From Streptomyces sp. NBC_00523 (GTDB lineage Bacteria > Actinomycetota > Actinomycetes > Streptomycetales > Streptomycetaceae), in assembly GCF_036346615.1 (NCBI RefSeq), contig NZ_CP107836.1, positions 4,278,001 through 4,342,000 of the forward strand: a DNA stretch of 64,000 nt. Direction: 5' to 3'. The notes under the pieces were generated by a model, which was given only the letters and a program-made list of their open reading frames with translations, did no database searches and was not told the origin of the DNA. A program made the translations under genes and the position numbers. Below, piece after piece: positions 30,376 through 37,049 of this stretch. Positions within the stretch are counted from its first letter, which is position 1; every line of letters begins with the position of its first letter.

Positions 30376-31197
30376 TCAGGAGGCTCCGGGCAGGCGAAGG
30401 TTCTCGTACTTCGGGTTGGGCTCCCCGCGCACCGCGCCCGTGACCTCGCCCGGGCACCCCTGCGGCGGGTGGCCGGGGACGTCGCGGACCTTGTAGTAGA
30501 CGCAGACCAGCCGGGGCTCCTCCGTACCGTCGCCGTAGGGGAGCATCCGGGTCTCGCCGCAGGCCGGGCAGCGGGCGTCCGTGTGGAGGAGGGTCCTGGG
30601 CTCCGTGAAGACGTGAGGCAGGCGGTTCCGCGTCACGGCGGCCCGGGGCAGGGACAGGCCGTAGTGGTCGCCCAGGATGCGGTAGACGTCCGGCATTCCG
30701 GTGTCCTCGGACGCGTCGTCCCGGAAGACGCCGTGCGGGTGGGCGAGGAAACCGGCCTCCGCGACCAGGCGCCGGCTCACCGGATGATCGATGTCGTCCG
30801 TGCCGTACTCCCGCATCATCCACTCGGTCTCGCCGTTCACGGTCACCGTGACGGCCGGGGGGTCCATGGTGGTGTCCAGGATGTCCACGACCGTGTGGCG
30901 GGCCCTGAGGTCCCGGCCGGGGGCCAGCCGGTCGTCGCGGTGCCCCGCCTCGGGTGTCTCCAGGGCGAACGACCAGGCGCCCGCCGCCTCGCCCACCATC
31001 GCCCAGTCCGGCAGCTTCGAGGACCCGGCTCCGTGGAAGAACTCCAGGACCCCCGGGGTGGAGTCCGGATCGAGGAGCGTGCCCGGCCGTGCGCCCAGGT
31101 ACCCCGCGAGAGTTTCGGGGGTGACACCCTTCACCAGGGTGAGGGAGTAGCCGTCCCGGCCCAGTTCGTCGTCCAGCCACGCGATTCCATCGTCCAT
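30376..31197 (-). CDS. DUF6461-like protein with cysteine-rich C-terminus
   Basis: A 273-aa protein of no known function. The N-terminus (DDGIAWLDDELGRDGYSLTL, then VKGVTPETLAGYLGA) resembles actinobacterial DUF6461 proteins. The last 70 residues carry CPACGETRMLPYGDG, VCVYY and QGCPGE, four cysteines that could bind zinc. Start ATG 31197 follows AGGG; an ATG at 31230 is less likely. It is insulated from the giant secreted protein gene by a terminator hairpin and is convergent with the TetR gene. Confidence 0.65.
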   Translation of the reverse strand: MDDGIAWLDDELGRDGYSLTLVKGVTPETLAGYLGARPGTLLDPDSTPGVLEFFHGAGSSKLPDWAMVGEAAGAWSFALETPEAGHRDDRLAPGRDLRARHTVVDILDTTMDPPAVTVTVNGETEWMMREYGTDDIDHPVSRRLVAEAGFLAHPHGVFRDDASEDTGMPDVYRILGDHYGLSLPRAAVTRNRLPHVFTEPRTLLHTDARCPACGETRMLPYGDGTEEPRLVCVYYKVRDVPGHPPQGCPGEVTGAVRGEPNPKYENLRLPGAS

Positions 31198-31229
31198 GGC
31201 TGGCACCCTAGCCTGGCGTTCGTACGCCA

Positions 31230-31260
31230 CAGGGGCCCGGCCATGGCGGCCGGGCCCCTG
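31230..31260 (-). terminator. 13-bp perfect hairpin after the giant secreted protein
   Basis: CAGGGGCCCGGCC at 31230-31242 pairs perfectly with GGCCGGGCCCCTG at 31248-31260 around a 5-base loop. It lies 21 bases past the stop of the gene at 31281-35741 (minus strand). Confidence 0.8.
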
Positions 31261-31280
31261 CTTCGGTCCGGGTCAAGCGG

Positions 31281-34200
31281 TCACGAGGGGCGCTTGGCCT
31301 CCAGCCAGTAGTTGTCTCCTTCGAGGACTCGGTTCTGCTTGCGCCAGCCCGGCATGTAGCTCATGGACTGGGTGTTCTGGTTGTTCGACATGCTGGAACG
31401 TCCACAGGGCTCGGTCCAGGTCGGCACGTGGGACCGCGGGTCGGGCTGGAGCCTCCACCGTCCGTCCGTACCGCGGATGGCGATCGTGTTCAGGCACTCC
31501 TCGCCCGAGGTGACCTGCTTCAGGTTCTTCCCGCCCCAGTTCTTCGGTGTCGCGGCGCTCTGCCAGCTCGCCGCGAAGGGGAACTCGTCGCAACTGGGCT
31601 TGTCGTTCGCGCCGAGTTCGGGTGACAGCGTCGCCAGTTTGTTGCGCTCCCATGCCGTCGGGCAGATCACGTCGCGGTTGTGGCTGACGATGCTCTTCTT
31701 GCTCGTCGGCGGATCGGGCACGAGGACGTCGTCGGTCAGGAAGGTCAACGGGTTGTTGCCCCGCAGCCCGTAGTGGCCGGGCAGCTTGTTCTGGATCAGC
31801 CAGGCGTGCGCGGCCGCCGCCGGGAACTTCTTCTCGTTCATGACGTACGTCGGCTTGTACGCGCTGAAGACGCAGCCCGGAGTGGCCTTCACGTCACGGT
31901 CGCACCGGACGTCCAGCTCCGACTTCTCAGCCGTCATCGGGTTGCTGGTGTCACCGGCCGCGGTTCCCTTGACCGTCAGGTACGGGCTGATCCGGCCCTG
32001 GTCATCGGTGGTGTTGTTCCACTTGATCTTCTGGGTGACCGTGGCCGTGTGGAGGTCGCCCGCGACGAAGGTGGGCGAACCGCTCCACACCGGAGACTGC
32101 TTCTCGCAGTAGCCGCGGCAGCCGAAGTCGATGTCCAGGGTCAGCGTGGGAATGGACATCGACGTCAGCTTGACCGACACGGTCTGGGTGAAGGTGTCGC
32201 TGTCCGGGTCGAGCGTGAACTCGTGCCGGAGGTCGAAGCTCGCCTTCGGCGTGCCGGTCGTGGTCCCCCTGAACTGCAGGTCGTCCCCGAGGCACGCGTC
32301 GGTGCGGGTGTAGTCCAGGGACCTCGTACCGATGGAGCAGCTCAGAGCGGACAGGGTGGACGCCGAACCGCTCGACGTCTTGGCGGACTTGAGGTCCGTC
32401 GCCGGCGTGGACGACAGGTGCAGCCCCTCCGAGCCGGTCACGGAGCGCGCCGCGCCGGGGAGACCGGAGACGGTGGGAAGCACACTGAAGTAGTCGCCCG
32501 AGATGCTCTGGGGCGGCTCGACCGGGGCCGGGTCCGGGGCCGTGATGTCCGGGTCGCCGAAGGTCAGGTCCTCGGGGATGCCGGAGTAGTCGCCGGGCAC
32601 GAACGCGAGGGCGTCGAAGGCGATGTCCGCGGAACCGTCACCCCCGTTGAAGTTGTGCAGGCTGACCTCGGGGGTCATGTCGTTGAAGAAGTACGCGCCG
32701 AGATCCACCCACTTGTTGGACTGGTTGGAGCTCTGGTCGATCGCCTTCACGGTCTCGCCGGCGGAGTGCTTGATGCGGTACTCGGCCTTGGAGGTCTGCG
32801 CCCCGTGGTCGGGGATGAAGGCATAGACCTTGGCCTGGCCGCTGTAGGCGGTGATCTTCTTGCCCAGTTTCCAGGTCCCGGTCACCTTCATCCGGTCGCC
32901 CGGCGGCGGGTACGACTCGGGGGACCGGGTGTGGGTGAACCAGAAGTGGTTGCCGTAGCCCGCGCCGATCTGGTGGGTGTCGATCTTGCCGGGGTAGGTG
33001 GTGACGGTCTGCCCGGTCTCCGAGTCGATGATGTCGGAGCCCTGGTACGTGAGCGTGAAGGTGCCGTCCGATTGCGCGGCTCCGCAGCCGCGTGAGGCCG
33101 AGCCCGCCGGCGTGGTGCCGTTCGGGATGTCGTCCACCACCAGTGCGTTCGACGGCAGGCCGCTACTGCACTTCGGCGGGTACGAGGCGGCGTCGGGCTG
33201 CTCCGGGTAGCTGGTGTTGAACCGGTGCACCTGGTGGCCGCACTCGGCCTGCTTGTCGCAGTCCTTCCACTCGGCGGACTTGGCCCACCAGCAGTGCAGC
33301 CAGTGCGGGTTGGTGTCGCTGTCACCGGCGTCCAGAGAGCAGGCGCCCATGCCGGGGTCGTTGGAGTCGCCGTCGGAGATCTTCGACGGATCGCAGGAGT
33401 TGGACGCGTCGCAGAAGGTGTCCAGCGGCGGCTTCACGGCCGCGCGCTGGAGGTCGCTGTTCCACCAGGCGGCCAGATAGCCGGGCTTGAAGTCACCGGG
33501 TCCGAACATCGCGGAGATCGGACGCGCGGCCCAGCCGAGCACCTTCTCCTCGTACGGCCAGTCCTGCGGGTGCGCGGCGTGGGAGTAGTCGTCCAGGTGC
33601 GGGTCCACCGCGTGCTGGAGGAAGGGGACCCGGTTGGCCTTCCACAGCGGGTTGGCGGGGTTGTTGGTCCAGCCGAGGCCCTTGTGGCCGCCGGAGTCGG
33701 CGGCCGGGTAGAAGCCGGAGTTGTACGCCCACAGCGCGAAGAACCAGTTCTCGATCCACTGCGGGTGGCCGTCGTTGACCGCCATCTCCTGGCCGTGGAG
33801 ATCGTTCCACTTGCGGGAGAGGATGGTCACGCCGTAGGCGATGTTCGCGGCGTAGTCCAGAGCGACCGCTTCCTGCGTGGCCGGCGGCAGGGCGGTCTCG
33901 CCCTCCTTGGTCTTGCCCGCGAGCCGCATGCCGTCGGTGGCCTGGGTGATGCCGTAACCGCAGTCCGCCTCGGAGAAGTTGATGCGCCAGGGGTCGGCCT
34001 GGTCGCCGTCGGCGGTGTACTGGGTGCCGTAGTAGTTGCCGATGAGGCTGTTGGAGGTGACGCCGGGGACGGCGAAGCGGGTCGCCTGCCACATGTTGGA
34101 TTCCTGCGCGGTGACGCCGAGCATCACCTGCGAGGGTATGTGCCACCGGTCGGTGACGTCCGGGTCCTCGTTGTCGAGGGTGCCGTTGGGGTCGCCGGCC

Positions 34201-35741
34201 AGGGTGATCGGCGGGAACAGCCCCTGCGGGGTGTAGCTGTCCATGCCGGTGTTCTTCCAGTTCGCCGGCCGGTTCACGTGCAGCTCACCGACGACGGCCT
34301 GGTCCACGGCCCATTCCACCTGGCGCGGGGTCGGCTGGAACGCCTGCTTGCGTACGTCGTTGCGGGCCACCGCGCAGTAGCGCTCATCGGTGCCCTCGCT
34401 GGGCCCGGTCGGCGACGCGGCCAGTGCTTGCGTACGGAAGCTCTGGGCGGACATGCCGTCGTTGCCGGGACCGGCCGACGGCTTCTTCCCGGAGGGGACG
34501 CCGAGGGCCGGGGAGGGCTCGGCGCCGGCCGCTGCCTTCTCCGCCGATAGCCGGGGGGTGGCGTCCAGTTCGGTGTGCTTGCCGGTGGCGACGACGTCCA
34601 GGGTGATGCGCGCGTCGCGGGCCTGCTGGGCCTCGTCGGGCGTGATCATGCTGGTTCTGCCGTCGGCCCAGGACGTGGAGACGCCCGCGTGGCCGAGGCT
34701 CGACATGCGGGCGCCCTTGGCGAGTTGCCCCGGGTTCCGCACCGAGCGGGGGAGCTTCCCCTTGCTCTTGGCCTTCCCGGTGAGGAAGACCGTGCCGCCG
34801 GGGGTGGCCGACAGGTCCCAGTCGGCCAGCTTTCCTTCGGCCACCGTCCTGGGGCTGGTCCGGCCGCCCTTGACCTGTCCGGAGTCCAGGTGCTTGGCCC
34901 AGGACTTCGCCGTCGCCTTCTTCCCGGCGTCGGCTTCCCGGTCGATGAAGGTCACGCCGTCGCCGCTGTCGGCCGCGATCTGGAACGGCACGTGCTTCGT
35001 CGTGGCGAGGACGGTTTCCTTCCGCCCGTTGATCCGGACGAGCTTGTTTCCGTGACCCGCCACGATGCCGTGCCGGGTCGGGACGGCGGAGGTGACCTGC
35101 CCCGGGAAGGCCACCGGCGCGGACTGCTTGCCGGTCGCCGCGTCCACGGTGATCAGGCGGGTCCGCTGCGCGGTGTCCCCGTCGTGGCTCAGCTGGGTGA
35201 ACACCACGTCGTCCCCCGTACCGCAGCCCGGGGAGAAGTAGGCGAGCGACGCCGTGAACGGCAGCTTGGTGACCTTGCCGCTGCCCAGGTCGACGACGGC
35301 GGTGAACGCGCCGCGCACCATCAGTTCCGGGTTGTTCGTGAACGTCCGGGGCGCGTAGGCGACGGCCGCGTACGCACCGGACCCGGTGACACACGTGTTG
35401 CCTATCCAGGTGTCCGAATCGAATCCGGTCTCACGCAGCGTGGCCACCGTGGTGAACGCGTAGCCGTCCTTCTCCTTTCCGGCCAGGAGATGGAAGCCGG
35501 TGCCGTCACCGGAGGTGGACAGGGCCACGTCCTTGGAGGAGGCGTAGGCGTCGCCCAGGACCGCGGCACGGTCCTTCCCGCTCACCTCGCGGGGCTGATG
35601 ACCGGCCTTCGGCAGGCTCTCACCCCCCTGTACGGCGTCGGCGGGGACCTTGGGCCCCTGGGCCTGCGCGGAGGCGGACAGCAACGAGCCGAACATCGCC
35701 GTCGCCGCCGCTATCACCACCACGCTTTTTCGGCGTTTCAT
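31281..35741 (-). CDS. Giant secreted multidomain protein: transglycosylase-like, golvesin-like and NucA/NucB-like parts
   Basis: A 1486-aa exported protein. A Sec signal peptide (MKRRKSVVVIAAATAMFGSL...AQA) is at residues 1-27. Residues about 40-450 are beta-rich and may form a propeller. Residues about 530-720 look like a lytic-transglycosylase fold: catalytic-type glutamate in GVTAQESNMWQ, then CGYGITQ and FALWAYNSG. Residues about 910-1050 match the golvesin/xly carbohydrate-binding-like domain. The C-terminal about 200 residues include CDEFPFAASWQSA, the hallmark of NucA/NucB-type nucleases. The start may instead be GTG 35747, closer to AGGA. This architecture suggests a secreted wall-degrading nuclease or a polymorphic toxin; no immunity gene is evident. 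Confidence 0.78.
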   Translation of the reverse strand: MKRRKSVVVIAAATAMFGSLLSASAQAQGPKVPADAVQGGESLPKAGHQPREVSGKDRAAVLGDAYASSKDVALSTSGDGTGFHLLAGKEKDGYAFTTVATLRETGFDSDTWIGNTCVTGSGAYAAVAYAPRTFTNNPELMVRGAFTAVVDLGSGKVTKLPFTASLAYFSPGCGTGDDVVFTQLSHDGDTAQRTRLITVDAATGKQSAPVAFPGQVTSAVPTRHGIVAGHGNKLVRINGRKETVLATTKHVPFQIAADSGDGVTFIDREADAGKKATAKSWAKHLDSGQVKGGRTSPRTVAEGKLADWDLSATPGGTVFLTGKAKSKGKLPRSVRNPGQLAKGARMSSLGHAGVSTSWADGRTSMITPDEAQQARDARITLDVVATGKHTELDATPRLSAEKAAAGAEPSPALGVPSGKKPSAGPGNDGMSAQSFRTQALAASPTGPSEGTDERYCAVARNDVRKQAFQPTPRQVEWAVDQAVVGELHVNRPANWKNTGMDSYTPQGLFPPITLAGDPNGTLDNEDPDVTDRWHIPSQVMLGVTAQESNMWQATRFAVPGVTSNSLIGNYYGTQYTADGDQADPWRINFSEADCGYGITQATDGMRLAGKTKEGETALPPATQEAVALDYAANIAYGVTILSRKWNDLHGQEMAVNDGHPQWIENWFFALWAYNSGFYPAADSGGHKGLGWTNNPANPLWKANRVPFLQHAVDPHLDDYSHAAHPQDWPYEEKVLGWAARPISAMFGPGDFKPGYLAAWWNSDLQRAAVKPPLDTFCDASNSCDPSKISDGDSNDPGMGACSLDAGDSDTNPHWLHCWWAKSAEWKDCDKQAECGHQVHRFNTSYPEQPDAASYPPKCSSGLPSNALVVDDIPNGTTPAGSASRGCGAAQSDGTFTLTYQGSDIIDSETGQTVTTYPGKIDTHQIGAGYGNHFWFTHTRSPESYPPPGDRMKVTGTWKLGKKITAYSGQAKVYAFIPDHGAQTSKAEYRIKHSAGETVKAIDQSSNQSNKWVDLGAYFFNDMTPEVSLHNFNGGDGSADIAFDALAFVPGDYSGIPEDLTFGDPDITAPDPAPVEPPQSISGDYFSVLPTVSGLPGAARSVTGSEGLHLSSTPATDLKSAKTSSGSASTLSALSCSIGTRSLDYTRTDACLGDDLQFRGTTTGTPKASFDLRHEFTLDPDSDTFTQTVSVKLTSMSIPTLTLDIDFGCRGYCEKQSPVWSGSPTFVAGDLHTATVTQKIKWNNTTDDQGRISPYLTVKGTAAGDTSNPMTAEKSELDVRCDRDVKATPGCVFSAYKPTYVMNEKKFPAAAAHAWLIQNKLPGHYGLRGNNPLTFLTDDVLVPDPPTSKKSIVSHNRDVICPTAWERNKLATLSPELGANDKPSCDEFPFAASWQSAATPKNWGGKNLKQVTSGEECLNTIAIRGTDGRWRLQPDPRSHVPTWTEPCGRSSMSNNQNTQSMSYMPGWRKQNRVLEGDNYWLEAKRPS

Positions 35742-35961: not shown

Positions 35962-36504
35962 TCAGTACCCTATGACCGAATCGATGTAAATCTTTGGGTC
36001 GTCCGGAGATTCGCCGTCAGGGAAATCGCCCATGACGGTCGTGGTTTCTCTTCCCGTCCGGCCGGGGGCCAGGTTCGGGAAGTCGAAATTCGTGGTCCTC
36101 ACCCACTCCTTGCCATCGCCTATGCTGACGGTGACCTTGAGATTGAGTGTCGAACTTCGATGATTGGTGATGTTGCAGGCGACGTTGAATCCGAGTTCGC
36201 TGCGAGTGGCCCGGACCTCCACGTCGCCAACGGTGACGACCTTCGTCCTCCCCGCATGACTGATAACCGGCGACGGCTCCGGGCTTTCCCGCGGGTCCTG
36301 CTCCGGATCGTCCTCCGGACCCGCCTCCGCGACTGGGGCGCTCTGCGCGTCGCTCGGCCCGGCGGAAACCGGCGGGCTCATGGAGGGCGGCGGGGCAGAG
36401 GGGGGACTGGAATTCGAGCACCCCGTGGTCAGCGCGGCAACGAGCGCTGCTGCGCCCCAGACTGCGGGGCGCAGCAGATCCCGGCGCAATGGCGTCAGTT
36501 GCAC
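35962..36504 (-). CDS. Small lipoprotein with FxLYD-like domain
   Basis: A 180-aa lipoprotein: an RR-containing signal peptide ends in the lipobox LTTGC (Cys about residue 29), followed by a Ser/Pro/Glu-rich linker. A beta-sandwich-like domain covers about 85-180 (VEVRATRSELGFNVACNITNHRSS, KEWVRTTNFDFPNLAPGRTG are in it), which resembles FxLYD/DUF4352-type extracellular domains. The GTG start at 36504 overlaps the stop of the preceding secreted-protein gene by 10 bases, so they are coupled. Function unknown. Confidence 0.72.
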   Translation of the reverse strand: MQLTPLRRDLLRPAVWGAAALVAALTTGCSNSSPPSAPPPSMSPPVSAGPSDAQSAPVAEAGPEDDPEQDPRESPEPSPVISHAGRTKVVTVGDVEVRATRSELGFNVACNITNHRSSTLNLKVTVSIGDGKEWVRTTNFDFPNLAPGRTGRETTTVMGDFPDGESPDDPKIYIDSVIGY

Positions 36505-37049
36505 GCGCCGATGCCGAGGTAGTTGTCAACCACTACCTTGGTGCCGACCTTCATGTAGGAGTACGTCTGCCCGCAGTATCCACGGTCCTGATAGAGGGGA
36601 CCGGCGTAGCTGCTGAAGGTTCCCGAGTCCTCGACGTCCGGAGTGGCGGTGTAGTTGTCCGACAGCTTGAGCCGCATCGAGTGCGCGACCCCGGTGTCGT
36701 TGAAGAACACGGCACAGATCGGCTTGTCGTAGTAGCTGCTCCCCGTGGTCTTCCCGTTCGTCCACGTGTACGTCGTGCCGTACGTTCCGTAGCGGGCCGC
36801 GCTGACGGAGATGGTGTAGCCCGCTCCGCACACATTGGCGGAAGCCGCGGCAACCTTTGCGTCGGCCGCAATGATTTCCTTTGTCGCGTCGTTCGCCTGC
36901 TTGTCGACCGTGACCCCCTGAATGTTCACGGTCGCGACCGGCGCACTGCCTGCCGAAGCGGTTCCTTCGCTCGCCGATGCCGTGGGCGCAGCCACGGTTG
37001 CGACGAGAAGGGCGGCGCTGACGCCGACAAGTCCTATGGAAATCTTCAT
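36495..37049 (-). CDS. Small secreted protein with four cysteines
   Basis: A 184-aa exported protein. The signal peptide is MKISIGLVGVSAALLVATVA followed by APTASAS. The mature part has four cysteines (VCGAGYTISV, PICAVFF, YCGQTYS, IGACN), enough for two disulfides, and is rich in Tyr, Gly and Thr. I do not recognise the family. ATG 37049 is chosen because a run GGGGGGGGA ends at the codon and the signal peptide starts here; the upstream extension is not signal-like. It is co-transcribed with the lipoprotein downstream. Confidence 0.72.
   Translation of the reverse strand: MKISIGLVGVSAALLVATVAAPTASASEGTASAGSAPVATVNIQGVTVDKQANDATKEIIAADAKVAAASANVCGAGYTISVSAARYGTYGTTYTWTNGKTTGSSYYDKPICAVFFNDTGVAHSMRLKLSDNYTATPDVEDSGTFSSYAGPLYQDRGYCGQTYSYMKVGTKVVVDNYLGIGACN

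Follow-up and report, generated by a model that had tools for sequence, protein, structure and literature searches.

Gene context of a predicted secreted polymorphic nuclease toxin in Streptomyces and of its DUF6461-like neighbour

The analysis of a 64,000-nucleotide stretch of Streptomyces sp. NBC_00523 (contig NZ_CP107836.1, positions 4,278,001 to 4,342,000; hereafter the window), belonging to a genome of 7.5 Mb in two contigs, makes it quite probable that the gene of a 1486-aa protein encodes a secreted polymorphic nuclease toxin with a wall-opening head, and that its neighbour encodes a DUF6461-like immunity protein. This reading fits the combination of immunity-type partners that adjoin the C-terminal tail specifically, the replacement of one partner family by another, the exchange of heads and a conserved nuclease site. 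With less assurance, and as a proposal on which opinion could still divide, these proteins might form a separate class of toxins exported by Gram-positive bacteria, combining a wall-opening carrier, interchangeable warheads (a NucA/NucB nuclease, an SGNH hydrolase or Rhs) and either of two unrelated immunity families.

Architecture of the exported protein

An open reading frame was found exactly where the original prediction had placed a 1486-aa exported protein, on the minus strand, no strand having been given before. Full-length orthologues are present in other genomes of the genus Streptomyces, one of them 85% identical and several 60-63% identical, which supports the reality of this gene. 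From the N-terminus (MKRRKSVVVIAAATAMFGSLLSASAQA) onwards, the protein successively displays a beta-propeller, an SLT-like (lytic-transglycosylase-like) region, a golvesin-like domain and a NucA/NucB-like tail, with the following features:

31281 to 35741, minus strand: gene of the predicted multidomain exported toxin (1486 aa; the coordinates include the stop codon)
35658 to 35741, minus strand: signal-peptide-like N-terminus, about residues 1-28 (read by eye from the sequence)
34554 to 35561, minus strand: beta-propeller, about residues 61-396 (AF2 head model and structure comparison)
33642 to 34385, minus strand: SLT-like region, about residues 453-700 (motifs and borderline PF01464)
34101 to 34103, minus strand: candidate catalytic Glu547 of the SLT-like region
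32634 to 32849, minus strand: Golvesin_C domain, residues 965-1036 (PF25275, E=1.7e-10, 41.5 bits for a cut-off of 31.6)
31872 to 32264, minus strand: beta-sandwich leading the tail, about residues 1160-1290 (AF2 tail model)
31284 to 31871, minus strand: NucA/NucB-like nuclease part, about residues 1291-1486 (PF14040 and conserved residues)
31584 to 31592, minus strand: Cys-Asp-Glu motif, residues 1384-1386 (homology to Asp93/Glu94 of Bacillus licheniformis NucB)
31374 to 31376, minus strand: Asn1456, corresponding in motif order to Asn117, a metal-binding residue of NucB

When the 1486-aa protein was searched alone, Golvesin_C was the sole firm Pfam match, in agreement with the golvesin-like domain claimed earlier, while NucA/NucB (E=0.12) and SLT (E=0.18) both remained below cut-off; NCBIfam and PDB searches with this single sequence returned nothing solid. 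The first 400 residues, absent from the earlier description, form the beta-propeller. Only this part of the AF2 head model is usable, with a pLDDT of about 85 compared to 64 for the head overall, the SLT-like region being modelled at low confidence. Using the propeller, VIA-align gave Z scores up to 16.0 (rmsd 4.2, 277 aligned) and Foldseek matched the TolB and BtuG propellers.

SLT transglycosylases are characterized by a Glu-Ser, a Gly-x-x-Gln-like and a Tyr-Asn-x-Gly motif, in this order. The head presents them in the expected succession, E547-S548, then G597..Q600, then Y673-N674-x-G676, and conservation is nearly complete: E547, S548, G595, G597, Q600 and N633 are kept in all 58 heads and Y673, N674 and G676 in 57 of them. 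The PF01464 (SLT) profile gave 11.8-15.0 bits on the window protein for a cut-off of 21.3, E-values of 0.1 or less in 23 of 28 heads (best 2.6e-4), and a score above cut-off in one head paralogue (23.4 vs 21.3 bits). Alignment of the SLT-like core with true Streptomyces SLT domains by hhalign did not detect a relationship with either the shallow or the broader head sets, and a PDB profile search with the SLT-region alignment gave nothing meaningful. Region 453-700 is considered here as a probable SLT-like transglycosylase part; the earlier claim of such a part holds for the motifs, which are invariant in the heads, whereas the profile match stays borderline in the window protein.

The nuclease-like tail

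The AF2 model of the tail is confident (pLDDT 94.8). Its leading beta-sandwich is adaptin-ear-like (Z 9.5, rmsd 3.1, 108 aligned), and the matches of fold searches with the tail model cover this sandwich only; NucB is missing from these lists, which constitutes no evidence against a likeness to NucB. A PDB profile search with the tail alignment gave nothing meaningful. On the window tail PF14040 scored 15.6 bits for a cut-off of 23.8, but it was matched by 33 of 51 tail members (best E 1.1e-10), several of them above cut-off, and with these matches among relatives the sequence-based prediction of a NucA/NucB (ComI)-type nuclease becomes firmer than the weak score of the window protein would make it.

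The window protein carries CDEFPFAASWQSA at residue 1384, and the aligned tail relatives have in common this C-D-E, an asparagine about 70 residues further on and several cysteines. All 69 tails possess D1385 and E1386, and 68 of them N1456; all seven tail cysteines tested are invariant. By homology, the D-E pair would provide a metal ligand and the general base. In NucB, Asp93, Glu94 and Asn117 are each essential, and their mutation abolishes activity (PMC5758888). In the tail model, the DE pair belongs to a strand and N1456 to a helix, which matches expectation. Both the similarity of the C-terminus to NucA/NucB and the presence of the catalytic residues, on which the original prediction of this domain depended, were recovered at the sequence level.

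Exchange of heads and tails

Of the 81 Streptomyces genomes sampled, 29 contain a match to the protein, and some contain at least seven. Two paralogues in the genome of the window match residues 8-1059 and not the C-terminus; these (L004, 5784-9833, and L005, 5290-9330, both on the plus strand) bear an SGNH/GDSL tail on the same head and have neither a SUKH nor a DUF6461-like neighbour. An SGNH/GDSL hydrolase, recognized by eye from its GDS and SFHP motifs, is the commonest tail on the shared head, and the plasmid-borne proteins with this tail are labelled "SGNH/GDSL hydrolase family protein" by NCBI. Two head proteins continue into Rhs repeats (L010 and L029, with open frames of 2442 and 2269 aa), connecting the head family to classical Rhs toxins, and two others stop after the head.

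The nuclease-like tail is found on full-length orthologues, in shorter exported proteins deprived of the head, and also on DNRLRE, CBM96 and LGFP proteins; its closest named relative, from Streptomyces sp. CB01249, is 98% identical. In a quick tree of 69 tails, with long branches present, the head type changes at least seven times. The variation of the C-terminus among strains, proposed earlier as a check, turned out to depend on the relatives considered, close orthologues keeping the tail (98% identity over the tail in L071, 86% in L056) and same-head paralogues bearing SGNH-hydrolase or Rhs tails. A constant N-terminus combined with exchangeable C-terminal domains, by which polymorphic toxins are recognized, was therefore found.

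Immunity-type partner genes

When 84,980 species genomes were searched with the tail as sole query, 80 loci were obtained, chosen without reference to their neighbours and located in Streptomyces, Actinomadura and other actinobacteria. Immediately 3' of the tail lies a gene of the SUKH (SMI1/KNR4) family in 50 loci and a DUF6461-like one in 29, never both, and a single locus (L147) has neither. The 29 include L095 and L145, in which stop-to-stop frames overlap and the partner genes start 41 and 96 bases beyond the tail match. The median gap between tail and partner gene is 58-69 bp; SUKH partners are mostly convergent (43/50), and 16 of 27 DUF6461-like partners run in the direction of the tail gene. 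Among representatives, Pfam retrieved SUKH (PF09346) with E-values from 1.4e-12 to 7.8e-5, and one relative exceeded the cut-off for DUF6461 (3.5e-10). The pairing is independent of the head carried by the tail. An independent sample of ten plasmid tail loci displays a partner in every case (five SUKH, five DUF6461-like), with concordant NCBI names ("SMI1/KNR4 family protein" in five, "DUF6461 domain-containing protein" in one).

As a control, none of 22 same-head SGNH-tailed paralogues has a SUKH or DUF6461-like neighbour. These counts (79/80 and 10/10 vs 0/22) indicate that the immunity-type partner follows the tail and not the head. The genomic background amounts to 0-9 SUKH and 0-3 DUF6461-like matches per genome, from which chance adjacency is estimated at roughly one in a thousand per locus, assuming some thousands of genes. 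An immunity-type gene adjoining the toxin module and specific to it, another hallmark of polymorphic toxins, was thus found by gene context. Exported enzymes of Streptomyces without immunity exist, such as alarmone synthetases (PMC12691689), which renders the near-universal partner more telling. No signal peptide was apparent by eye in the SUKH or DUF6461-like partners, suggesting that they probably act in the cytoplasm. Kinship between the two families was considered and set aside (hhalign probability of 3.6%), and they are treated as unrelated.

In the window, the partner position is occupied as follows:

30376 to 31197, minus strand: DUF6461-like gene of 273 aa, predicted to confer immunity (profile of the tail-adjacent genes)
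31229 to 31261, no strand assigned: GC-rich, terminator-like hairpin without U run (-40.3 kcal/mol, z -3.86 vs shuffles)

The 273-aa protein matches the profile built from the tail-adjacent DUF6461-like set with E=1.1e-46 and reaches 15.4 bits with PF20062 (DUF6461), below the cut-off of 23.2; the SMI1_KNR4 profile PF09346 did not match it. Its sequence marks it as a divergent relative of DUF6461, hence the term "DUF6461-like", with an extra cysteine-containing, zinc-ribbon-like C-terminal part. The ATG at 31197 agrees with the family alignment as gene start, a GTG at 31230 being possible. The original prediction had seen no obvious immunity gene and had left this protein uncharacterised; it belongs in fact to one of the two families adjoining the tail in 79 of 80 loci. 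Since the strong hairpin lies between the stop of the toxin gene and the 273-aa gene, the latter may have its own promoter.

The genome of the window gave no match to PF20062; the tail-adjacent profile does match in it. A second DUF6461-like gene was retrieved away from any nuclease tail (L191, 2733-3338, minus strand; C1:4073256) and is possibly an orphan immunity gene, or has another function. More generally, DUF6461-like genes away from tails are often located in unrelated neighbourhoods, and an immunity role is therefore not claimed for every member.

Partner switching among related tails

On the quick tree of 69 tails mentioned above, long branches included, the immunity family changes at least eight times, five of these changes being forced by well-supported branches, and the window tail sits among SUKH-guarded tails. 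Tails that are 80-86% identical can have unrelated immunity families, as exemplified by L101 (DUF6461-like partner) and L098 (SUKH partner), 86% identical; the tails of L097 and L098 are 82% identical.

Proposed mechanism and alternative explanations

The toxin would leave the producer through its signal peptide, presumably by the Sec route. The constant head would serve as a carrier, probably attaching to the peptidoglycan of a neighbour and opening it. The C-terminal nuclease, which conserved disulphides probably hold together, would then reach its target and cut DNA there, as the residues of a NucA/NucB (ComI) family metal-dependent D-E ... N site suggest. The product of 30376-31197, predicted to be cytoplasmic, would bind the nuclease and protect the producer and its kin, a pairing suggested by genomics. 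In relatives, an unrelated SUKH-family protein would guard the same tail instead.

The original prediction had hesitated between a toxin and a scavenging or autolytic enzyme for a chain joining wall-cutting and nuclease parts. The toxin reading is retained and the enzyme readings fit less well, the partners looking cytoplasmic, being specific to the tail and being swapped between families. The main rival, ranked second and rather improbable, is a secreted scavenging or developmental DNase that digests extracellular DNA, or the DNA of lysed mycelium released by the wall-cutting part, and that is accompanied by a barstar-like cytoplasmic guard against enzyme folding before export. A purely extracellular enzyme needs a cytoplasmic inhibitor only if it folds before export, as in a guard of the barnase-barstar type. 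Such a lifestyle is known from Bacillus relatives of NucA/NucB, which are secreted nucleases (NucB, PMC5758888; ComI with its inhibitor ComJ, PMC3482391), and it would suit the wall- or sugar-binding modules (LGFP, CBM96) of some tail proteins. Guards that have repeatedly given way to an unrelated family, together with repeated head swaps, nevertheless fit conflict better than housekeeping, as do fused SUKH-DUF6461 proteins and tandem SUKH genes. Moreover, the invariant cysteines suggest that the unexported protein would be inactive and would have little need of a cis guard.

It is much less probable that this presumed toxin ends in a degenerate relative of NucA/NucB that binds DNA or the wall without catalysis. 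The weak PF14040 score of the window protein would agree with it, as would the lack of conservation across the family of the equivalent of NucB His53, the residue that supports the Asp (the window protein has H1312, as do 40 of 69 tails, and most of the others have Tyr or Phe). The retention of D1385, E1386 and N1456 in 68-69 of 69 tails argues against decay, and a tail-specific partner in 79 of 80 loci would be superfluous if the tail were inactive. Least probable of all is an ordinary autolysin or wall-remodelling enzyme with an incidental C-terminal domain, for which the invariant SLT-like motifs and the SGNH tails, without immunity-type neighbours, of most paralogues could be invoked, and against which stand the patchy occurrence (29/81 genomes), the expansion to at least seven matches in some genomes, the tail swapping and the tail-specific partners.

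Comparison with known systems

The ComI nuclease is already listed as a toxin domain, and SUKH among the immunities, by Zhang et al. 2012 (PMC3482391). The present system resembles their Tox-ComI with Imm-SUKH or Imm-ComJ by its predicted C-terminal NucA/NucB nuclease with a DE dyad, its actinobacterial occurrence and its presumed export, given there as T2SS; it differs by its propeller/SLT-like/golvesin head, the repeats and protease listed for Tox-ComI being RHS and HINT. Golvesin, SGNH and the combined propeller, SLT-like and golvesin head were not found in the part of this publication available (PMC3482391). The tail shares with NucB of B. licheniformis and B. subtilis (PMC5758888) the order DE then N and, judging from the matches of its relatives, the PF14040 family. 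Unlike NucB, a stand-alone enzyme of 110 aa, it spans about 325 aa, includes an added beta-sandwich as well as conserved cysteines, is joined to a large head, and has a partner gene from different families.

The Streptomyces umbrella toxins UmbA/B/C (PMC11062931) are, like the toxin predicted here, exported and polymorphic with adjacent immunity genes, and both systems contain beta-propeller folds, those of UmbA being lectins; conversely, umbrella particles are multi-protein, and transglycosylase, golvesin, NucA/NucB and SUKH are not mentioned in PMC11062931. In Tde5 with Tdi5a/Tdi5b (PMC13392607), a beta-beta-alpha-metal DNase toxin is neutralised by two structurally unrelated immunity proteins, as two unrelated families would counter the predicted nuclease here; there both act on one T6SS toxin, whereas here a given locus has either SUKH or DUF6461. 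Finally, Neisseria MafB (PMC3482391) also combines a constant N-terminal domain with variable C-terminal toxins and has an upstream lipoprotein, MafA; its domains are unrelated to those described here, where a lipoprotein-like gene accompanies only a minority of loci.

Neither "DUF6461" nor "golvesin" joined with "Streptomyces" was found in the literature searched, outside which most subscription journals lie. As far as this literature shows, the head, the exchange of SGNH and nuclease tails on it, and DUF6461 as an alternative immunity are new. DUF6461 would gain a predicted function, immunity to NucA/NucB toxins, and if it does protect, many unannotated Streptomyces genes could be read as toxin-immunity pairs. 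One toxin domain with at least eight switches of immunity family also provides a natural series useful for the study of toxin-antidote co-evolution, and the architecture suggests how a Gram-positive bacterium might pass a nuclease through the wall of another cell without an injection machine.

Upstream genes and additional observations

Two genes upstream of the toxin gene could be accessory to it:

35962 to 36504, minus strand: lipoprotein-like gene, 180 aa, possible accessory (relatives upstream of nuclease-tailed heads)
36495 to 37049, minus strand: small exported protein, 184 aa, possible accessory (relatives upstream in some loci)

Relatives of the 180-aa protein were retrieved at about 10 nuclease-tailed head loci vs none of 22 SGNH-tailed loci; they lie upstream of L071, L076-L079, L084, L118 and L142. 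An unrelated lipoprotein of about 338 aa is present upstream in other nuclease-tailed loci (e.g. L076, 788-1801), and these lipoprotein genes occur upstream in 0-1 of 22 SGNH-tailed loci. The upstream lipoprotein-like protein may serve for anchoring or as a second protector. Relatives of the 184-aa protein are less discriminating: they lie upstream at 8 of the 29 loci with a nuclease tail and at 4 of the 22 with an SGNH tail.

Several loci depart from the simple arrangement of one tail and one partner. L188 (750-2735) and L189 (1780-3720), both on the minus strand, are single ORFs fusing SUKH (weak in L189) and DUF6461-like domains, resembling the polyimmunity proteins that occur in known systems (PMC3482391). 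Tandem SUKH genes or domains adjoin one nuclease tail in L256 (plasmid NZ_CP107824.1, 3588-4259 and 4753-5433) and in L117 (8003-9136). In L073, a SUKH gene (8103 onward) is located between a nuclease-tailed protein and an opposite-strand head-family protein of about 1325 aa. The short or headless tail frames of L128, L129, L139, L141 and L144 still adjoin a SUKH or DUF6461-like gene and look like orphan toxin-immunity cassettes.
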